A DNA stretch of 64,000 bases from an uncultured Atopobiaceae bacterium (GTDB lineage Bacteria > Actinomycetota > Coriobacteriia > Coriobacteriales > Atopobiaceae), in the NCBI GenBank assembly GCA_944321515.1, contig CALULO010000001.1:1-64000 (forward strand), written 5' to 3'. Positions within the stretch are counted from its first letter, which is position 1. The number at the start of each line of letters is the position of its first letter. The position numbers were made by a program, and so were the translations under genes. The notes under the pieces are model-generated. The model was not told the DNA's origin. It ran no database searches and saw only the letters and a program-made list of their open reading frames with translations. Of this stretch, positions 10,557 through 34,571 are shown in pieces.

Positions 10557-12209
10557 CTACGAGGAGGCCTTCGGGCCCTTCTCGTGCGAGATCGTCTTGA
10601 TGGCCGGGGTGGTGGCGAGGCCGAGCAGGACGATCACGGCGCCCGCCGCGTAGGCGACGCGGACCGAGTCATAGCGGGCCTGCGCCTCAATCTTGACCAG
10701 CGCCTCACGCTCGGCGTCGGTCATCGAGATGCCAGAGATCTGCTCCTCGAAGACCTTGTCGCTGCCAAGGTCAATGCTCAGCGTCGCAATCTGGCTGTCC
10801 ACCTGCGACGAGATTGCGGAGTCGGCAGCGGCGCCGGAACGGACGGCGTTGGTGATGCCCAGCAGGAGAATCGCGCCAAGCAGCGCTACGCCCATGGCCT
10901 GGCCGACGTTGCGCATGGTGCTCTGGATGCCGCCGGACTGGGAGGCGTCACGCTCGGGGAGGGCGAGCGCGACGACGTTGCTCGCGTGAGACGAGACGGA
11001 GCCGGCGCCGACACCTGCCATGAACGCGCCGAGGTAGACGGCAACGGGGCTAGAACCCTCGGGCGTTACGGAGATCGCCATGATCGCCAGGGCCACGGCC
11101 ATCGCGACATAGCCGAACTGGATGACGTGGCGCGGGTTGGCCTTGGGGGCGAGCTTGGGGATGCCGAGCGCGAGTGCAAAGGTGGGCACGCCAGTCACGA
11201 TTGAGATGGTCCCGACCGCGACGGGCGACCAGTTGGAGACGAGCTGGAGATATGGCGCCATGAGGATGGACTGCGCCCCCATGAAGAAGAACATGAGCGC
11301 GTTGGCAACGAGGCCGGCAAGCACCTGGGGCGTCCTCAGGAAGGACTGCGGCAGCAGCGCGACCCCGTTTTTCTGTTCGACGCGCTTCTCGACCGGGACA
11401 AGCGCGACGAGGATGAGGAGGCCTACGACGGCCACGGGGAGGGCGGGAGAGATCCCGAAGACCTTGAACGGGCATCCGGAGAGCGGCTCGATAAGGCCCC
11501 AGGAGGAGATGCTCGAGATGCCGATGAGGAACATGAAGAGGCCCGCCGCCGCAAGGACGACCCCGGCGCCGTCAAACTTGAGCTTGTCGCCGGACTGCTC
11601 AATCTTGGGCAGGCTGAAGGACACCAGGAAGACCACGAGGAAGTAGGCCGCAAGGACGAGGAAGGTCACGTGCATGCCTGCGACCTCCATGACGATGCCT
11701 AGGGCAAGCGGGAGCAGCGCCGAGAGCCCGGACGCGGCCCCGATGCAGCCAAAGGCGACCATCCTGTTGCGCCCCTGGTAGAGCAGGGGTATGAGGCCCA
11801 GCACGGACGGGATCATGAAGCTGGCGCCAAATCCGACGAGGACACGGCCCACCCAGATGAAGACGGTCATGCTGGGCGCAAGGGCAAGGGCCACCTCGCC
11901 GGCGGCGCACAGCAGAATACCTGCCCGGAACGTCTTCTTCCAGCCAATGATCGTCCCCATGAGGCCGCCGGCAATCATGAAGGCCCCGCCGACGAGCGGG
12001 TAGACCATGTTCGCAAGCTGGATCTCAGAGGTGGTCGCGCCAAGGTCCTGCGTCAGGGCCGTGGCCGAAAGGGAGAGGGCGCCGCTGTCGCCCGTGGCCC
12101 CCATCTGGGCGAGGATGAGGATGATGATTGGTATAACGAGGAATTTCTCGGCACCTGTGGGAGGGGCGCTTGCGTGCCGAGCCCCTGTGGGCGTTGCGGT
12201 CTTAGCCAT
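10557..12209 (-). CDS. MFS drug/organic-compound exporter, DHA2 (14-TM) type
   Basis: A 550-residue protein with about 14 hydrophobic segments. Visible are the DHA2-type LANMVYPLVGGAFMIAGG, FIWVGRVLVGFGAS (motif C-like region) and a long loop near the C-terminus. AAGGAAG lies before the ATG at 12209. It starts 47 bp after the stop of the bile-salt-hydrolase-type gene on the same strand and is probably co-transcribed with it. Efflux of bile acids or of the amidase products is a reasonable inference, not shown by the sequence. Confidence 0.8.
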   Translation of the reverse strand: MAKTATPTGARHASAPPTGAEKFLVIPIIILILAQMGATGDSGALSLSATALTQDLGATTSEIQLANMVYPLVGGAFMIAGGLMGTIIGWKKTFRAGILLCAAGEVALALAPSMTVFIWVGRVLVGFGASFMIPSVLGLIPLLYQGRNRMVAFGCIGAASGLSALLPLALGIVMEVAGMHVTFLVLAAYFLVVFLVSFSLPKIEQSGDKLKFDGAGVVLAAAGLFMFLIGISSISSWGLIEPLSGCPFKVFGISPALPVAVVGLLILVALVPVEKRVEQKNGVALLPQSFLRTPQVLAGLVANALMFFFMGAQSILMAPYLQLVSNWSPVAVGTISIVTGVPTFALALGIPKLAPKANPRHVIQFGYVAMAVALAIMAISVTPEGSSPVAVYLGAFMAGVGAGSVSSHASNVVALALPERDASQSGGIQSTMRNVGQAMGVALLGAILLLGITNAVRSGAAADSAISSQVDSQIATLSIDLGSDKVFEEQISGISMTDAEREALVKIEAQARYDSVRVAYAAGAVIVLLGLATTPAIKTISHEKGPKASS

Positions 12210-12256
12210 CGTTCTTCCTTAGTCGAGTAGTTCGGGGGATAGGGGTTCCAAGACGC

Positions 12257-13222
12257 CTAGGCAGCAGGCTGGACAAAGACCGGCTCGGTCCCCGAGAGGT
12301 CAACGGACGAGAGCGGGTAGGCGCGAATCTGCGGATCGTCATAGGTGCCGTGGTAGTAGGTCATCGTCGAGGGGGAGAAGCAGCTCGTGTAGAGGGTCTT
12401 CTCGAACGACCCGTCCGCCATCTTTGCACAGCCGTCCGGCACCGCGACGGACCCGAGGGTCCTGTACAGGCGCGTGACGTTGGACGCCTCGTCGTTCTGA
12501 ACGGGATAGTGACTGTTCACAAAGGCGACCTTGACGAACCGCGCGGGACCGCTGTAGTCCCCGGGGACGCCCTGCATGCCCATGCCCGAGCCAAACGGCG
12601 CGAGACCGGCGGAACCCCAGGAGACCTGGCCGGGCTCGGCGTCAGTCAGCGTGAGGTAGTTGCGCAGGTTGGTCCGCTGCCAGCCGAAGTCCGGCTCGTT
12701 GGTAAGCACGTCGGCGTCGTCCTCCCAGACGCGCAGCCCGTCGGACAGGCACTCGACGACTATGCTCCCAGCGGCGTCACCGATGAGCCAGTGAAGGTTT
12801 GCGACAGGAAGCTGCTCGTTGACGGGCTTTGCCACCACGGTCACGTTCGAGAGCGCCTCACGCACCTCGTCGACGCTCGAGAAGTTCCGCGCGACCCAGA
12901 ACGGGAACTCGTAGGCCGCGACGTTGACCGCCCCCTCCTTGCCCTCCTTGGCATAGCTGGCGCTCTGGGGGAAGTTGAGCCCCGCGACCGCGAGCCCGGC
13001 ATCGTTGCCGCAGTCGAAGTAGAGGGGAATCCCGGCGACGACGATGCCCATCCCCATGACGGTGTGGCCATCCTTCGGGTCGCCGGGTCTCTCGAAGGCC
13101 GCGGGGACCTTCGCTGCGGGCGGCGTGACGACGACGCGCTCGCCGTACCCCTGTGTCCAGTCCAGGTTCCTCCCGAAGTACATCTTCCCGGAGCCGTCAG
13201 TGAAGCGGATGCCCGTGCACAT
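12257..13222 (-). CDS. Choloylglycine hydrolase family amidase (probable bile salt hydrolase)
   Basis: The 321-residue protein begins Met-Cys; Cys2 is the N-terminal nucleophile of this Ntn-hydrolase family after Met removal. Other catalytic or binding residues fall at the expected places: Arg18 and Asp21 in GRNLDW, Asn83 in GLNFPQ, Asn175 in VLTNEPDF and Arg228 in GPARFV. GVPGDYSGPARF is typical of bile salt hydrolases. No signal peptide, so the enzyme is cytoplasmic and would hydrolyse imported conjugated bile salts. AAAGGAGG precedes the ATG. Penicillin V acylase activity is the alternative within the family. It heads an operon with an MFS exporter. Confidence 0.85.
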   Translation of the reverse strand: MCTGIRFTDGSGKMYFGRNLDWTQGYGERVVVTPPAAKVPAAFERPGDPKDGHTVMGMGIVVAGIPLYFDCGNDAGLAVAGLNFPQSASYAKEGKEGAVNVAAYEFPFWVARNFSSVDEVREALSNVTVVAKPVNEQLPVANLHWLIGDAAGSIVVECLSDGLRVWEDDADVLTNEPDFGWQRTNLRNYLTLTDAEPGQVSWGSAGLAPFGSGMGMQGVPGDYSGPARFVKVAFVNSHYPVQNDEASNVTRLYRTLGSVAVPDGCAKMADGSFEKTLYTSCFSPSTMTYYHGTYDDPQIRAYPLSSVDLSGTEPVFVQPAA

Positions 13223-13397
13223 GGGACCTCCTTTCCGCCCAAGCCATCCGGCCCGAGCACGAAACGGAAAATGTTACCCCCCCCTGATGTTTTCTATACG
13301 CCTTTGAACGACCTGCGATGGTCTTTGATTTGTTTGTGGTTATTTTTTTCGGCGAACAAGGTTCTTCTCGCCCCTTGCGCGGTGCACGCAGCAGCCA

Positions 13398-28216: not shown

Positions 28217-29806
28217 TTACTCCCACTCGATCGTCGCGGGCGGCTTGGGCGTCACGTCGTATACCACGCGGTTGACGCCGGCCACCTCAGCCACGATGCG
28301 GCTGGAGATCTTCCCGATCACGTCGTAGGGCAGCTTCGCCCAGTCGGCGGTCATGGCGTCGGAGCTCTCCACGGCGCGCACGATCACCGGACGTGCGTAC
28401 GTGCGCTCGTCGCCCATGACGCCCACGGAGCGGATGTCGGGCAGCACGGCAAAGTACTGCCAGCAGCTGTGCTCACTGTTGCGCTCGCCGGTCTCCTGGA
28501 ACAGGCGCTCGTTGTAGGCGTCCAGCTCCTCGCGCACAATCGCGTCTGCGTCCTTCAGGATCGCGAGCTTCTCGCCCGTCACCTCACCGATGATGCGGAT
28601 GGCCAGGCCCGGGCCAGGGAACGGCTGGCGGTAGACCATCTTGTCGGGCAGGCCAAGGGCCACGCCCAGCTCGCGCACCTCGTCCTTGAAGAAGTGGTCA
28701 AGCGGCTCGATGAGGTCAAAGTGGACGCCCTCGGGGAACGGGATCAGGTTGTGGTGGCTCTTGATCGTCGCGGCCTTGCCACCCGTCTTGCGAGCGCCGG
28801 ACTCGATGATGTCGGGATAGATGGTGCCCTGAGCCAGCAGCTCCACGTCGCCGAGCTTCTGCGCCTCGTCAAAGAAGACCTTCCAGAACTCCGTACCGAT
28901 GCGGCGGCGCTTCTCCTCGGGCTCGGTCACGCCGGCCAGCAGCTTGGCGTAGCGCTCCTCGGCGTGCACGTGCACCAGCGGGACCTGGAACTGGTCGCGG
29001 AAGACCTCCTCGACCATCTCCGGCTCGCCCTTGCGCAGCATGCCGTGGTTCACGAAGACGCAGGTCAGCTGGTCGCCCACTGCGCGGTGCACCAGCGCCG
29101 CCACCACGGAGGAGTCAACGCCGCCGGACAGGGCGAGGATGACCTTCTTGTCGCCCACCTGCTCGCGAATCTCGGCGACCTTCTCGTCGACGATGTTGTC
29201 CATGGTCCAGTTGGCCTCGAGCCCGCAGATGCCAAAGAGGAAGTTCTCCAGCAGCTGGCGGCCGTACTCGGTGTGGCGGACCTCCGGGTGGAACTGCGTG
29301 GAGTAGAGGTGGCGCTCCGGGCACTCCATCGAGGCAACGGGGCACACGTCGGTGTGCGAGGTGACCACGAAGCCCTCGGGCGCGCGGGAGACGGCGTCGC
29401 GGTGGCTCATCCAGACGGTCTGCTCGGACGGCGTCTCACCAAAGAGGGCGGAGTCGCCGGCGCGGTGCACCGTGGCGGGGCCGTACTCACCCACCTCGGA
29501 GTGGGCAACCTCGCCACCCAGCGTCACGGCCATGATCTGGTGGCCGTAGCAGAAGCCGAGCACGGGCACGCCCAGCTCGAGGATCTTGGGGTCGATAGAC
29601 GGCGCGTCCTCGGCGTAGACGCTCGCGGGGCCGCCGGAGAGGATGAGCGCGGAGGGCCGCATGGCGGCGAGCTCGTCGGCAGGGATGTCACACGGAACGA
29701 TCTCCGAGTACACGTGCAGGTCGCGTACGCGGCGCGCAATCAGCTGCCCGTACTGGGCACCAAAGTCCAAAACGGCAACGAACTGCTTGGGGCTCGAATC
29801 GCTCAT
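28217..29806 (-). CDS. guaA: GMP synthase (glutamine-hydrolysing)
   Basis: The start is ATG 29806 (GGAGG 4-8 bp upstream), giving 529 residues, close to the family norm. The order is a class I glutamine amidotransferase domain (FGAQYGQLIARRVR; nucleophile Cys86 in GFCYGHQIM), a PP-loop ATP pyrophosphatase domain (ILALSGGVDSSVVAAL) and the C-terminal dimerisation domain ending PPATIEWE. It converts XMP, ATP and glutamine to GMP in the cytoplasm. The nitrilase gene follows after 10 bp. Confidence 0.97.
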   Translation of the reverse strand: MSDSSPKQFVAVLDFGAQYGQLIARRVRDLHVYSEIVPCDIPADELAAMRPSALILSGGPASVYAEDAPSIDPKILELGVPVLGFCYGHQIMAVTLGGEVAHSEVGEYGPATVHRAGDSALFGETPSEQTVWMSHRDAVSRAPEGFVVTSHTDVCPVASMECPERHLYSTQFHPEVRHTEYGRQLLENFLFGICGLEANWTMDNIVDEKVAEIREQVGDKKVILALSGGVDSSVVAALVHRAVGDQLTCVFVNHGMLRKGEPEMVEEVFRDQFQVPLVHVHAEERYAKLLAGVTEPEEKRRRIGTEFWKVFFDEAQKLGDVELLAQGTIYPDIIESGARKTGGKAATIKSHHNLIPFPEGVHFDLIEPLDHFFKDEVRELGVALGLPDKMVYRQPFPGPGLAIRIIGEVTGEKLAILKDADAIVREELDAYNERLFQETGERNSEHSCWQYFAVLPDIRSVGVMGDERTYARPVIVRAVESSDAMTADWAKLPYDVIGKISSRIVAEVAGVNRVVYDVTPKPPATIEWE

Positions 29807-30005
29807 GCATCCTCCGGTCTTCCAGCCGATGTCCGGCTTTGACGATAAAGCCAACTCATTATTGCATTTTCTTGAGATAAGGTGCGTTTTGATGCTCCTT
29901 CATGCGCCCTACACCTCATTTTCGTATCATTTTGCGTCTGAAGCAGCGAACCCAAACGGGGCCTCGGTGCCTCGCCACGAAGAAGGACGACCAGAAGGGG
30001 AACTC

Positions 30006-31541
30006 GTGGCTGACAGAAAGCCCCACAAGCGCATGACCCATGCTGAGCAGATTCGTCGCTCGCAGAGCCGCTACGGCAGCAGTGCCTCAGTCGGTGCGCC
30101 TTCGCACACTCGTGCTGCCTCCGAAACGCCCCGCACTTCTCGCCGGGCGAGCAGCACCTCAAGCCGCCACATCGCCACGCGCGCCGACGGCGTGGACGCC
30201 TACGCCGCGCGACGCAAGAAGAACGGCCGCGGCCGCGTTCTGCGCGGCGTGCTCGTGGCGTTCCTCCTGGTCCTCGTGGGCGTGGGCACTGCGGCGGCGC
30301 TCTACATCACCCAGATCAACAACAACCTGAGCGACGGCGTCTCCGAGGAGCTGCGCCAGCAGCTCGTGTCCGTTGAGCCTCAGCAGCCGTTCTACATGCT
30401 GCTGCTGGGCGTCGACAAGAGCGAGGGACGCGCAGAGGAGTGGGGCGACTCCACGTCGAACTTCCGCGCCGACACCATCATTCTGGCGCGCGTCGACGCG
30501 CCCGCCCAGAAGGTGACCCTCGTCTCCATCCCGCGTGACACCTACGTGGACATGGGCTCGCACGGCAAGGACAAGATCAACGCCGCCTACTCCTACGGCG
30601 GGGCCGCCTACATGGTCGAAGTTGTCTCGGAGTTCGCGGGCGTCGACATCTCGGCCTACGCGGAGATTGACTTCGAGCAGTTCACCTCCATCGTAGACAC
30701 CATCGGGGGCATCGAGGTCACGCTGCCCGTGGACGTGGTGGACGAGGACTACGCAGGCATCAACCTTACCGCGGGCACCCACCAGCTCGACGGCGCCACG
30801 GCACTCGCGCTTGTGCGCACCCGCCACGCCTACGACTCCTACGGCGGGGGCGACTTCTATCGTGCCGCCAACCAGCGCGCGGTCATCGCCGCCATCGTCA
30901 AGAAGATCCTGCAGCAAGACCCGGTGACCATGGCATCCACCGTCTCCAAGCTCGCCGACAGCGTCACCACCACGATGGGCGTCACGGACATCGTGAGCCT
31001 GGCCATGCAGTTCAGAAACCTCGACGTTGACAACGACTTCTACTCGGGACAGACGCCCACGATCTCCGAGTACACGAACAACATCTGGTACGAGATGCCT
31101 GACACCGCCGCGTGGAAGGAAATGATGCAGCGCGTGGATGCCGGCCAGTCCCCCTACTCCGACGCGAGCCAGGACTTCACCTCCGGCGCAACCATCGCCA
31201 TCGGCAACGGCACCTCCATCTCCGACGACGGCAGCACGAGCTCCTCCGGCGAGAAGGCCACGTACTCGGGCTCGGTCCTCGTGCTCAATGGGACGGGCGT
31301 AAGCGGCCTGGCGGCGTCCAAGTCCTCCGACCTCGAGTCCGCGGGCTTCTCGCCCTACGCCGACACCGCCAACTCGTCCAGCCACACCACGAGCATGGTC
31401 TACTACAACGGCAGCGCCCGCAGCTCCGCCGTCGGTGTGGCAGAGACCCTCGGCATCAGCACGGACAACGTCGCCGAGAACACAGAGGGCTACTCCACCC
31501 GTTACGACGTCATCGTCGTGCTTGGCGCCGACCAGGCATAG
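30006..31541 (+). CDS. LytR-CpsA-Psr (LCP) family cell-wall glycopolymer ligase
   Basis: The start is GTG 30006 with AGAAGGGG 5 bp upstream. A ~75-residue basic, Ser/Arg-rich cytoplasmic tail precedes a single membrane helix (VLRGVLVAFLLVLVGVGTAAALYIT). The extracellular LCP domain follows: NFRADTIILARVDAPAQKVTLVSIPRDTYVD, DKINAAYSYGG and ALALVRTRH, containing the conserved Arg and Asp residues that bind polyprenyl phosphate. A C-terminal LytR_C domain (VLVLNGTGVSGLAASKSSDLESAGF) ends the 511-residue protein. LCP enzymes transfer polymers from lipid carriers to peptidoglycan. The long basic tail is a possible target for phosphorylation or protein contacts. Confidence 0.9.
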   Translation: MADRKPHKRMTHAEQIRRSQSRYGSSASVGAPSHTRAASETPRTSRRASSTSSRHIATRADGVDAYAARRKKNGRGRVLRGVLVAFLLVLVGVGTAAALYITQINNNLSDGVSEELRQQLVSVEPQQPFYMLLLGVDKSEGRAEEWGDSTSNFRADTIILARVDAPAQKVTLVSIPRDTYVDMGSHGKDKINAAYSYGGAAYMVEVVSEFAGVDISAYAEIDFEQFTSIVDTIGGIEVTLPVDVVDEDYAGINLTAGTHQLDGATALALVRTRHAYDSYGGGDFYRAANQRAVIAAIVKKILQQDPVTMASTVSKLADSVTTTMGVTDIVSLAMQFRNLDVDNDFYSGQTPTISEYTNNIWYEMPDTAAWKEMMQRVDAGQSPYSDASQDFTSGATIAIGNGTSISDDGSTSSSGEKATYSGSVLVLNGTGVSGLAASKSSDLESAGFSPYADTANSSSHTTSMVYYNGSARSSAVGVAETLGISTDNVAENTEGYSTRYDVIVVLGADQA

Positions 31542-31665: not shown

Positions 31666-31769
31666 GCTTGGGGAATCGTGACTTGTCGTTGAGAGCCGTC
31701 CGCCGCTTACAGAATTGCTGTCGATGCAGCAAAAGGGCTACCAGCTGCTTAGAGAATCGCGACTGATGC
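31666..31769 (-). repeat. Left half of a degenerate 23-bp motif array (three units)
   Basis: Units begin at 31666, 31705 and 31747 and read GCTT..GGAATCG..., GCTTACAGAATTGC... and GCTTAGAGAATCGCGAC... They end in TGTCG or GATGC. Spacing is 39 and 42 bp. They are the reverse complement of the units in the right half beyond the IS21 element. A weaker fourth unit starts at 34390, exactly 42 bp on when the IS is removed. Confidence 0.7.
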
Positions 31770-31944
31770 GGCAAAGGAGCCGTCGAGTGAGTAGTAACCC
31801 TGTTTGGTAACGCGAGTCAGCAAAAGCTGGTACCGGCGGTCAGCGCCAGCGGTACCGGAAATCGGCTCGAATGGTACCGCCCCCAGAATCCGTGACAGGG
31901 GCGCCCGAAGGGCGGGCGCCGAGACGCGGAAGGGGCTGGTGCCC

Positions 31945-33541
31945 ATGTCCAAGAAGAAAAAGATTCCCCTGATACTCGCGAAGGGGGGTCTCGCAGTCCG
32001 AGGTCGCCGCGGCGCTGCGCGCGAGCAAGCGCGACGTGTCGGCGTGCGCGAGGGCGATCCGCGAGCGCGGCGTCACCTTCGACGACGTCTCCGCGATGAC
32101 CGAGGCCGAGGTCGACGGGATGCTGGCGCCGCCGGCGAGGGAGAAGGCCGAGAGCGCCCACCTCGTCCCCGATATGGCCCCGCTGGTCGAGCGCAAGAAG
32201 CGCAATCGCAAGCTCACGGTCAAGATGTTCTGGATGGAGCACTGCGAGGCCGCCGCGGCCGCAGGGAAATCGGCCTACTCGTACCAGACGTTCTGCGAGA
32301 TGTTCGCCGAGGCGGCGGAGAGGGCCGGGGCCAGGAGGAGGCTCGCCCACGAGCCCGGCGCGAAGGCCTACGTCGACTGGGCGGGCGACACCGCCTCGCT
32401 CACCGACCGGCTCACCGGGGCAAAGACCAAGGTGTACGTGATGGTCGTCGCCCTGCCGTACTCCGACCGCTTCTGGGCGCAGGGCTTCGCGGACATGCGC
32501 CAGCGCTCGTGGCAGGAGGGGCAGGCCCGCGCGTTCGAGGACTTCGGCGGGGTCCCGAGGATGCTCGTGCCGGACAACGCCGCCACGGCGACGGACCGCT
32601 CCTCGGTCTACGTCACGCTGGTGAACGACGAGTACCGGCGCTTCGCCGAGCACTACGGGGCGGCGGTCGTCCCCGCCAGGGTCCGCCGCCCCCGCGACAA
32701 GGCGGTCGCCGAGTCCACGGCCGACCTCGTCGAGAAGTGGATCATCGCCCCCTCCGACGAGATGACATTCTACTCGCTCGAGGAGTTCAACGGGTTCTGC
32801 CTCGAGCGAGTGCGCTGGCTGAACGCCCGCCCGTTCTCCGCGAAGGAGGGGTCGCGCGACTCCGTGTACGAGGACGAGGAGCGCGCGTGCATGCAGCCGC
32901 TGCCCTCCGAGCGCTACGAGATGTGCGAGTGGCGCAGCTGCAAGGTGGCCCCCGACTACCACGTGACCGTGGTCTACATGCGCTACTCCGTCCCGTTCCA
33001 TCTGATCGGCGAGCAGGTCGACGTCAGGCTGTCGGACTCCCGCGTGACCGTCATGTCCGGCGGCGGTGCCGTCGCCGAGCACGCGAGGCTCCGCGGGCGC
33101 AGGGGGCAGTACTCCACGCTCGTCGAGCACATGCCTCCCGCGCACGCCACGATGGACTCGCCCTGGTCGCGCGAGCGCTTCTCGTCGTGGGCGCACCGGA
33201 TAGGGGCCGAGACCGGGGAGGCCGTCGACCGGCTGCTCGACGGCAGGCCCGTCGTCGAGCAGGCCTTCGTGCCGGCGAGGAACATACTCGGGCTGTCGAA
33301 GTCGTACTCGCCGCAGCTGCTCGAGCGGGTGTGCGCCAAATCCAATGCGCTCGGCGCGGTGCCCAGCTACACGGCGCTCAAGAACGCGATCCTCGCGATC
33401 AGGGCCGCCGACGCCGACGAGCGCGCCTCGGGCCGGACGCCCGGGGCGTCGGACGGCGGCGGGCTCGTCGACCGCGCGAAGTCGGCGGGAAGGCTGCGCG
33501 GGGCCGACGCCCACCGGAGGGGAGGCGGTGCGCGATGCTGA
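31945..33541 (+). pseudogene. istA: IS21 transposase IstA, frameshifted near the N-terminus
   Basis: The natural start appears to be ATG 31945 (MSKKKKIPLILAKG), but that frame departs from IstA at a run of six G (31983-31988). With five G the sequence would continue as VSQSEVAAALRASKRDVSACARAIRERG, i.e. the HTH segment. In the present frame IstA is open only from GTG 32036. The rest is intact: DYVDWAGDTASL-type region (AYVDWAGDTA), VPDNAATATDR and the rve-type DDE core. One extra base (real mutation, programmed shift or read error) breaks the N-terminus. The stop overlaps istB. Confidence 0.8.
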
Positions 33542-34290
33542 CCGAGGAGCACTTCGACATGCTCACCAGGTTCAGGGTGAGGGCCATGGGCGACAAGCTG
33601 CGCGAGATGGTCGAGGACGACTCCTACGACTCCTATACCTTCGAGGAGAGGATGGAGATGCTAATCGAGGCCGAGGCGACGGCGAGGCGGGACCGCAAGG
33701 TCGCGAAGCTCGTGCGGGAGGCCCGCTTCAAGCTGCCCTCCGCATGCGTGGAGGACGTCGTCTACCTGAAGGACCGCAAGCTCAGCCGCGACCGGGTGGC
33801 GCGCCTCGCCTCATGCGACTGGGTCGAGGCCTGCGAGACCGTCGTGATCATATCCAAGACCGGCTGCGGCAAGAGCTTCCTCGGGCAGGCGCTCGGCAAC
33901 GCCGCGTGCCGCAGGCTCTTCACCGTGCGCTACGCCCGCCTTGCGGACATCATGGAGGACCTGAACAGGTGCCGTGCGGCGGCCGACGGGAGCTACTACC
34001 AGCACATGGACGCCTACAAGACCGTCCAGCTGCTCATCGTCGACGACTTCATGACCACGCCGATCGCGACGCAGAACGCAGTCGACCTCTTCGAGATCAT
34101 GGGGGCGCGCGAGGGTCGGGCGGCCACGCTCATTGCCTCCCAGCTCGAGCCCAACGAGTGGTACCTGAGGATCGAGGGCGAGCTCATGGCCGACTCAATC
34201 CTGAACAGAGTCGCCACCGGGGCGCGATACGTCGACCTGGACGGCCCGAACATGCGCGAGTACTTCGCGAAGCAAAAGGGCGACCGATAG
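33535..34290 (+). CDS. istB: IS21 helper ATPase IstB
   Basis: A 251-residue protein whose ATG 33535 overlaps the istA stop by 7 bp, with GGAGG upstream. IISKTGCGKSFLGQALG is the Walker A region and LLIVDDFMTTP the Walker B; both are DnaC/IstB-like. IstB is the ATP-dependent target-selection partner of IstA. It appears intact. Confidence 0.92.
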   Translation: MLTEEHFDMLTRFRVRAMGDKLREMVEDDSYDSYTFEERMEMLIEAEATARRDRKVAKLVREARFKLPSACVEDVVYLKDRKLSRDRVARLASCDWVEACETVVIISKTGCGKSFLGQALGNAACRRLFTVRYARLADIMEDLNRCRAAADGSYYQHMDAYKTVQLLIVDDFMTTPIATQNAVDLFEIMGAREGRAATLIASQLEPNEWYLRIEGELMADSILNRVATGARYVDLDGPNMREYFAKQKGDR

Positions 34291-34424
34291 CGGTACCAGG
34301 CCACCATACATCCGGTACCGTCGGCGGCTGACCGGCGGTACCATTCCGGCTGACTGACGTTACCAAAACGGGTTACTACTCAGTCGAGCGCTTAGGAAAT
34401 CACGGGCAGGGTACTTCTCGCCGC

Positions 34425-34571
34425 GCAACGGCCGCGATTTTGAAAGCGCCGGCATCCCAAACCGTGCAACGACCACGATTTTGAAAGCGCCGGCACCTCG
34501 GACAGTGCAACAGTCGCACTATCGTAAGCACCTTGCCGCTCGGAACGCGCATCAGCCGCATTATCGTAAGC
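34425..34571 (+). repeat. Right half of the 23-bp motif array (four units)
   Basis: Units at 34425-34447, 34466-34488, 34507-34529 and 34549-34571 read GCAAC(G/A)..CGC.(A/T)T.T...AAGC. The period is 41, 41 and 42 bp. The ~18-bp spacers partly share GCCGGCA. Orientation is opposite to the left half. No cas gene or AT-rich leader is present, so this is not a CRISPR array. Confidence 0.75.

Follow-up and report, generated by a model that had tools for sequence, protein, structure and literature searches.

The array described here is one member of a dispersed family of bipartite repeat arrays that is restricted to a single genus of the Atopobiaceae. It lies in a 64,000-nt stretch of DNA (the window) of a 1.96-Mb Thermophilibacter/Olsenella genome (Atopobiaceae, Coriobacteriia; the host genome below), between the 3' end of a LytR-CpsA-Psr (LCP) family gene and the 3' end of a gene for a 438-aa protein. 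Its 23-bp units form two inverted halves, and the distance between such halves is locked to the helical repeat of DNA across the family. The whole is best explained, with a probability that we put at about 0.45, as a family of phased, protein-bound arrays that would act as chromosome-organising hubs.

Units and geometry of the array in the window

The units were scored with a matrix trained only on 270 units from other species. Exactly seven units exceeded 8 bits in the 64-kb window (15.6-32.6 bits), three on the minus strand and four on the plus strand; in twenty 64-kb Markov surrogates scored with the same matrix the top scores were 7.5-16.5 bits. The features are as follows.

29643..31541, plus strand: LCP gene, left neighbour (PF03816, 2e-42; PF13399), ending toward the array; start codon approximate
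31666..31688, minus strand: degenerate outermost left unit, -2.4 bits in the given register
31705..31727, minus strand: 23-bp unit GCATCGACAGCAATTCTGTAAGC, 24.0 bits
31747..31769, minus strand: 23-bp unit GCATCAGTCGCGATTCTCTAAGC, 29.8 bits
31788..34382, plus strand: IS21-family element with terminal repeats TGAGTAGTAACC/GGTTACTACTCA
32036..33541, plus strand: IstA-type transposase (rve, Mu-transpos_C_2)
33535..34290, plus strand: IstB ATPase (PF01695, 2.7e-42)
34390..34412, minus strand: innermost left unit ACCCTGCCCGTGATTTCCTAAGC, 15.6 bits, 42 bp from the 31747 unit without the IS
34411..34421, minus strand: array centre GCGAGAAGTAC, a variant of the genus-wide motif GCGAGAAGNAC
34425..34447, plus strand: 23-bp unit GCAACGGCCGCGATTTTGAAAGC, 32.6 bits
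34466..34488, plus strand: 23-bp unit GCAACGACCACGATTTTGAAAGC, 31.0 bits, a tandem copy of the 34425 unit (83% over 41 bp)
34507..34529, plus strand: 23-bp unit GCAACAGTCGCACTATCGTAAGC, 25.3 bits
34549..34571, plus strand: 23-bp unit GCATCAGCCGCATTATCGTAAGC, 25.3 bits
34643..35959, minus strand: 438-aa protein, right neighbour and first island gene; no Pfam match

An earlier sequence-only reading of this DNA had counted about eight degenerate 23-bp motifs. Seven of these are borne out by the matrix from other species, whereas the eighth, at 31666, is a decayed copy in which the AAGC/ATTC half is intact and a 3-bp shift accounts for the odd 39-bp step. The unit at 34390, which that reading had called weak, is a good one, and the 41-42 bp period that it gave for the right half was confirmed. 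The halves turn around ACTTCTCGCCGC, between 34390(-) and 34425(+), which are 35 bp apart start to start. The unit consensus, GCAACNNCCNCNATTTCNTAAGC, is asymmetric.

The left half is split by the IS21-family element, whose 6-bp target duplication GTCGAG is found at 31782-31787 and 34383-34388. The statement of the sequence-only reading that removing the element restores the 42-bp step holds: with the IS and one duplication taken out, 34390-31747-2601 gives 42 bp. The corresponding empty site is present in Olsenella profusa An794 (G029, locus L090), where the array is uninterrupted and carries a single GTCGAG. Another array of the family (L101:11070-12411 in G018) is apparently split as well, with an rve (IS3-type) transposase at 11127-12356 between the units at 11070 and 12389.

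A family of arrays restricted to one genus

The first genome-wide search used a one-mismatch pattern and revealed unit clusters at many loci of the host genome, with minus units on the left and plus units on the right; the later search used a 65-bp two-unit model and gave about 14 arrays, including those at C5:42.4 kb and C12:5.1 kb. The genome-wide enrichment of the motif that was to be checked is thus real. Matches to the two-unit model occur in 20 of 31 genomes of the genus at E<=0.01, some with more than 40 two-unit matches, and at 1e-4 in 9 of 13 genus members included in the order-wide comparison; none of 184 genomes from other genera of the order matches it, and the plasmid, phage and viral collections and contigs gave no array match. 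Each side holds 2-6 units (mostly exactly 2+2 in Thermophilibacter gallinarum-type genomes), and the units share about 64-71% identity.

Two further elements of about 100 bp (L012:4993-5091 and L103:3603-3702) have a single inward-facing unit pair around a CTACCTG...CAGGTAG hairpin; they lie in two species beside different genes. Autoregulation of a binder gene at these pairs was considered and rejected since the neighbours differ.

The units are phased along the DNA helix

Of 261 same-strand steps shorter than 70 bp, 250 measure 41 or 42 bp. The gap between the last minus unit and the first plus unit climbs a ladder of 35 (one 38), 45/46, 55/56, 77, 86/87, 97, 108/109, 118/119, 128-130 and 139/140 bp, with one outlier at 170. 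These gaps are phase-locked at 10.5 bp (Rayleigh R=0.93, n=57 arrays; R drops to 0.49 for a period of 11 bp and to 0.43 for one of 10 bp), and the 35 gaps that remain without the 35s and 45s still give R=0.89 at 10.5 bp. With a few orthologous pairs among the 57 arrays, the nominal p of about 1e-22 overstates the significance, yet the 10.5-bp ladder is plain by eye all the same. Such phasing is expected of proteins that sit on one face of double-stranded DNA, and it is not expected for RNA loops or neutral repeats; it points to a protein assembly at these sites. The four-turn phasing proposed from the one locus is thus supported far more strongly than a single locus could show, and the accompanying proposal of a multi-site protein-binding or DNA-folding array gains support from it. 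We regard a protein-bound phased array as very likely.

Units and spacing are constrained while arrays grow by duplication

In the orthologous arrays of G004 and G025 the units are 95-96% conserved vs 80-92% for the spacers, and between the host genome and An794 the values are 65-75% vs 48-72%. In most pairs there are almost no indels inside orthologous arrays, and indels are present in the flanks. Adjacent spacers are more similar to each other than random ones (0.42 vs 0.32) and some neighbours are clearly tandem copies, so that arrays lengthen when a 41-42-bp step is duplicated in tandem; non-adjacent spacers are random relative to one another. This pattern indicates that after duplication the spacers drift while motif and spacing are held.

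Gain and loss of arrays between species

Arrays come and go between species, and some members of the genus have no array of the window type; the role of the arrays is therefore not essential in this form. Eleven array loci of An794 were followed into the host genome. Ten of them are empty there, the site being recognised by the same two neighbours or by the left-hand gene. At the purD locus the array occurs only in the host genome among the relatives found, with an intergenic region too divergent for exact borders.

Presence and absence between the same conserved genes, together with a copy number that varies widely among genomes and an LCP/438-aa gap of 91-195 bp where two species (G020 and G002) lack this array, is what a non-autonomous MITE-like element would produce if its ends carried several sites for a transposase binding in trans. 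Tn7- and Mu-type transposon ends do carry several transposase sites of about 22 bp per side in inverted orientation, and the arrays resemble them in this. The arrays differ from such ends in having no target duplication, 2-6 units per side, no transposase and a cargo-free centre of 12-117 bp. Over the 57 arrays there was no excess of target-site duplications of lengths 2-12 compared with permuted flanks. Recent copies within a genome are missing too: the best within-genome full-length pairs are about 70% identical, and the best non-orthologous pairs about 65-75%. The variable unit number, the lack of any transposase family recurring beside arrays and the lack of matches in plasmids, phages or viral contigs also count against a MITE-like origin, which we consider unlikely. 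An active MITE was rejected, given that neither target duplications nor near-identical copies were found, and a phage or plasmid origin was rejected for want of any match in the plasmid, phage and viral collections.

The LCP locus and the neighbouring island

The sequence-only reading had also named, as an alternative, a boundary element separating the LCP gene from the adjoining island. This was not upheld: in both G020 and G002 the gene of the 438-aa homologue is the direct, convergent neighbour of LCP, 91 and ~195 bp away (also given as 90-195), with this array absent and the same next genes following (1741-aa and 508-aa homologues). Most arrays elsewhere lie between ordinary genes in conserved order; an island-border element was rejected as the general meaning for this reason and because the island sits by the LCP gene without this array in these two species. 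As island genes stand beside the LCP gene without this array in G020 and G002, the island is probably old at this locus and the array would be the later arrival between the two genes.

A weaker link between arrays and island does remain. In the host genome the island carries a second array at its other end (C1:71.07-71.34 kb, locus L009). An794 has no island, and its one array at this locus joins the left half of the first array, as far as ACTTCTCGCCGCGC, to the right half of the second array, taken from its second plus unit onward, the join being at the centre. Around this join ~0.3 kb on the left and ~0.8 kb on the right are ~99% identical to the host genome, with ~90% identity further out. 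This ~1.1-kb tract (L090:3793-4865, matching the window and L009) within ~90% surroundings suggests a recent short exchange between the species that carried the island-less form.

A junction exactly at the centre of a chimeric array, the high identity around it, an island held between two arrays, and a single gene flanked by two arrays at C1:185-187 kb where G015 has one array would all suit att-like recombination or integration sites at which islands enter and leave. However, most arrays lie between conserved neighbours without cargo, no recombinase recurs beside them among the sampled neighbours, and the island occurs beside LCP without this array in two species, so deletion between two arrays explains An794. 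We therefore find att-like sites improbable; deletion of the island by recombination between the two arrays fits An794 best, and a dedicated recombination system is possible, though not required for it.

The island itself (34643-64000 and on to C1:71 kb) encodes the 1741-aa protein, which has a weak AAA ATPase match, as well as a RyR-domain protein, AAA proteins, a TrwB/TraG-like coupling protein and, at its far end, a TIR-domain protein. PADLOC named no system for the first four island proteins, and the island may hold an undescribed defence system. The gene alone between two arrays (L010:5298-6389; C1:185.3-186.4 kb) encodes 363 aa without a Pfam match and is absent from the G015 counterpart; a paralogue lies near the second array (L009:8728-9741).

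Array centres and dialects

The motif GCGAGAAGNAC occurs 10 times per kb in array centres vs 1.8 in the 150-bp flanks (~5.6x). Arrays with long centres often hold a second motif, with GAAAYCSCAGTTG as its exact form. By count GAAAYCSCAGTTG is not over-represented: the genus yields 25 matches, spread over 15 genomes, and the reversed pattern 19. Yet 19 of the 25 matches lie between inverted repeats scoring >=13.5, a score reached by 0.5% of random positions and by 4% of positions 3' of purD. At several of these loci the inverted repeats are unlike the window unit: L156 has GCAAAACTCTCGTTCGTGATGAA twice on each side of GAAAYCSCAGTTG with a 40-bp period, L158 (also L028) has arms of the TTTGGCCTCTCAGTCCATGCG type, and L143, the LCP locus of G002, has AATAACGGACATTATGACGATTGC arms. 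One orthologous locus in three species (L144, L150 and L151) has three different arm sequences. The same architecture with other unit sequences is seen by eye in L152 and L158. The differing arms may be read, from few examples, as dialects of one architecture, perhaps with a common origin.

The self-complementarity of the inverted halves, and the single-arm relatives L144, L150 and L151 in which both arms have changed together around a constant centre, could also come from pairing of the halves in a transcribed hairpin RNA or a DNA cruciform. In the arrays, mirrored spacers resemble each other about as much as random ones do (0.327 vs 0.319), and mirrored units are hardly closer to each other than non-mirrored ones (0.671 vs 0.650). 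A 10.5-bp ladder of loop lengths is not expected of a hairpin RNA, and Rfam 15 has no match at the arrays, its one hit, to the L31-Coriobacteria leader, lying in L018 but not within the array. Paired halves thus have little probability, and RNA or cruciform was rejected for the array type on the lack of mirrored covariation and of an Rfam match.

A separate short motif, GCGAGAAGAAC (GGCGAGAAGNACC in its wider form), has 317 copies in the host genome vs 5 for the reversed pattern, and 27-559 in each of the 31 genus genomes; none of 29 genomes from other genera has more than 23. In the window it is at 13361, 17902, 18648, 31576, 51720, 56342, 63861 and 63885. It is strand-symmetric, lies in genes and between them, and in places two copies form an inverted hairpin (63861-/63885+; L017:5964-/5982+). 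The motif resembles DNA uptake sequences; we know of no such sequence described for Actinomycetota.

Arrays are indifferent to the neighbouring genes

The flanking genes have mixed functions (purD, RNase J, malic enzyme, L31, FKBP, TIR, LCP). Their orientations, which rest on crude codon-usage gene calls, are evenly spread (++ 14, -+ 14, -- 13, +- 12), there is no 5'/3' bias (55/51), and among the sampled neighbours no gene family, transposase or recombinase recurs. A role as operator, insulator or terminator of adjacent genes, which might explain why some arrays begin less than 30 bp from a gene end, is very improbable given these mixed functions and the lack of any preference in orientation or 5'/3' distance, on which a promoter or terminator role was rejected. 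Arrays found between genes of any function and orientation suggest hubs that would act at the DNA level, rather than promoters, terminators or RNAs.

Comparison with known systems

The centromere sopC (parS_F) of the F plasmid consists of twelve 43-bp tandem repeats with ten 16-bp inverted-repeat ParB sites (PMC6238139). The likeness lies in tandem steps of about four turns, each pairing a conserved site, putatively protein-bound in the arrays, with a spacer that is less conserved; here the step is 41-42 bp in nearly all cases and the site is asymmetric. While sopC is a single direct array of palindromic sites beside sopAB on a plasmid, the arrays have asymmetric sites, two inverted halves and some 14 copies on one chromosome. 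A single ParB is present in each of the host, An794 and T. gallinarum genomes, just as in array-poor ones, and no parAB genes were found beside arrays among the sampled neighbours; sopC-like partition with its own ParB was rejected, as array-rich genomes have no extra ParB.

BIME/REP, BOX and Correia elements are similar in being intergenic, genus-restricted and modular, in having tens of copies, in hosting IS elements and in being gained and lost between relatives. REP units are palindromic, and locking to the helical phase is not known for BIMEs. The arrays differ in their asymmetric units (the consensus is not an imperfect palindrome), their 41-42 bp spacing and the 10.5-bp steps across the centre. 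Neither sopC nor REP-like repeats have asymmetric units, inverted halves and a phase-locked centre. CRISPR arrays share short repeats and spacers of constant length, but in the present arrays the repeats are ~70% alike, the spacers can duplicate with the repeats and the halves are inverted; the Pfam matches of sampled array neighbours include no cas genes. No description of such arrays was found in the literature searched, which took in few subscription papers, and a large ordered protein-DNA assembly of this kind seems not to have been described before.

Proposed mechanism and implications

The sequences show the units and their period, the phase-locking, the family and its distribution, the constraint on units and geometry, and the turnover of arrays between species. 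From these we infer three steps: protein binding, cooperation of the bound molecules and a chromosome-organising role. A putative sequence-specific protein would occupy each 23-bp unit. With same-strand sites every 41-42 bp (4 turns), bound molecules would share the same side of the helix and could touch, and the two inverted sets, being in the same rotational phase across a variable centre, would form one nucleoprotein body, in which the centre may often offer a further site (GCGAGAAGNAC and/or GAAAYCSCAGTTG). Such hubs might serve as looping, anchoring or loading sites. Chromosome organisation appears the most likely use because the arrays are dispersed, gene-indifferent and constrained in geometry, although taken by itself this role stays on the doubtful side.

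It is also possible, and we propose it tentatively, that the dialects belong to a genus-wide recognition system with a conserved GAAAYCSCAGTTG centre and two inverted 23-bp sets whose sequence differs by lineage or within a genome, whereas the 23-bp units, the 40-42-bp period and the inverted halves would stay constant. If true, this would be a DNA-binding system, chromosome-organising or selfish, in which specificity and sites evolve quickly together, as at fast-evolving centromeres, and the dialects would be a natural experiment in the joint change of a binding protein and its dispersed sites. Phase-locking to the helix, seen at dozens of loci and in several species, gives strong evidence, from sequence alone, for a large ordered protein-DNA assembly. 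Identification of the binder would open up a chromosome-organising or selfish system in the Coriobacteriia, a major gut group that is genetically little studied.
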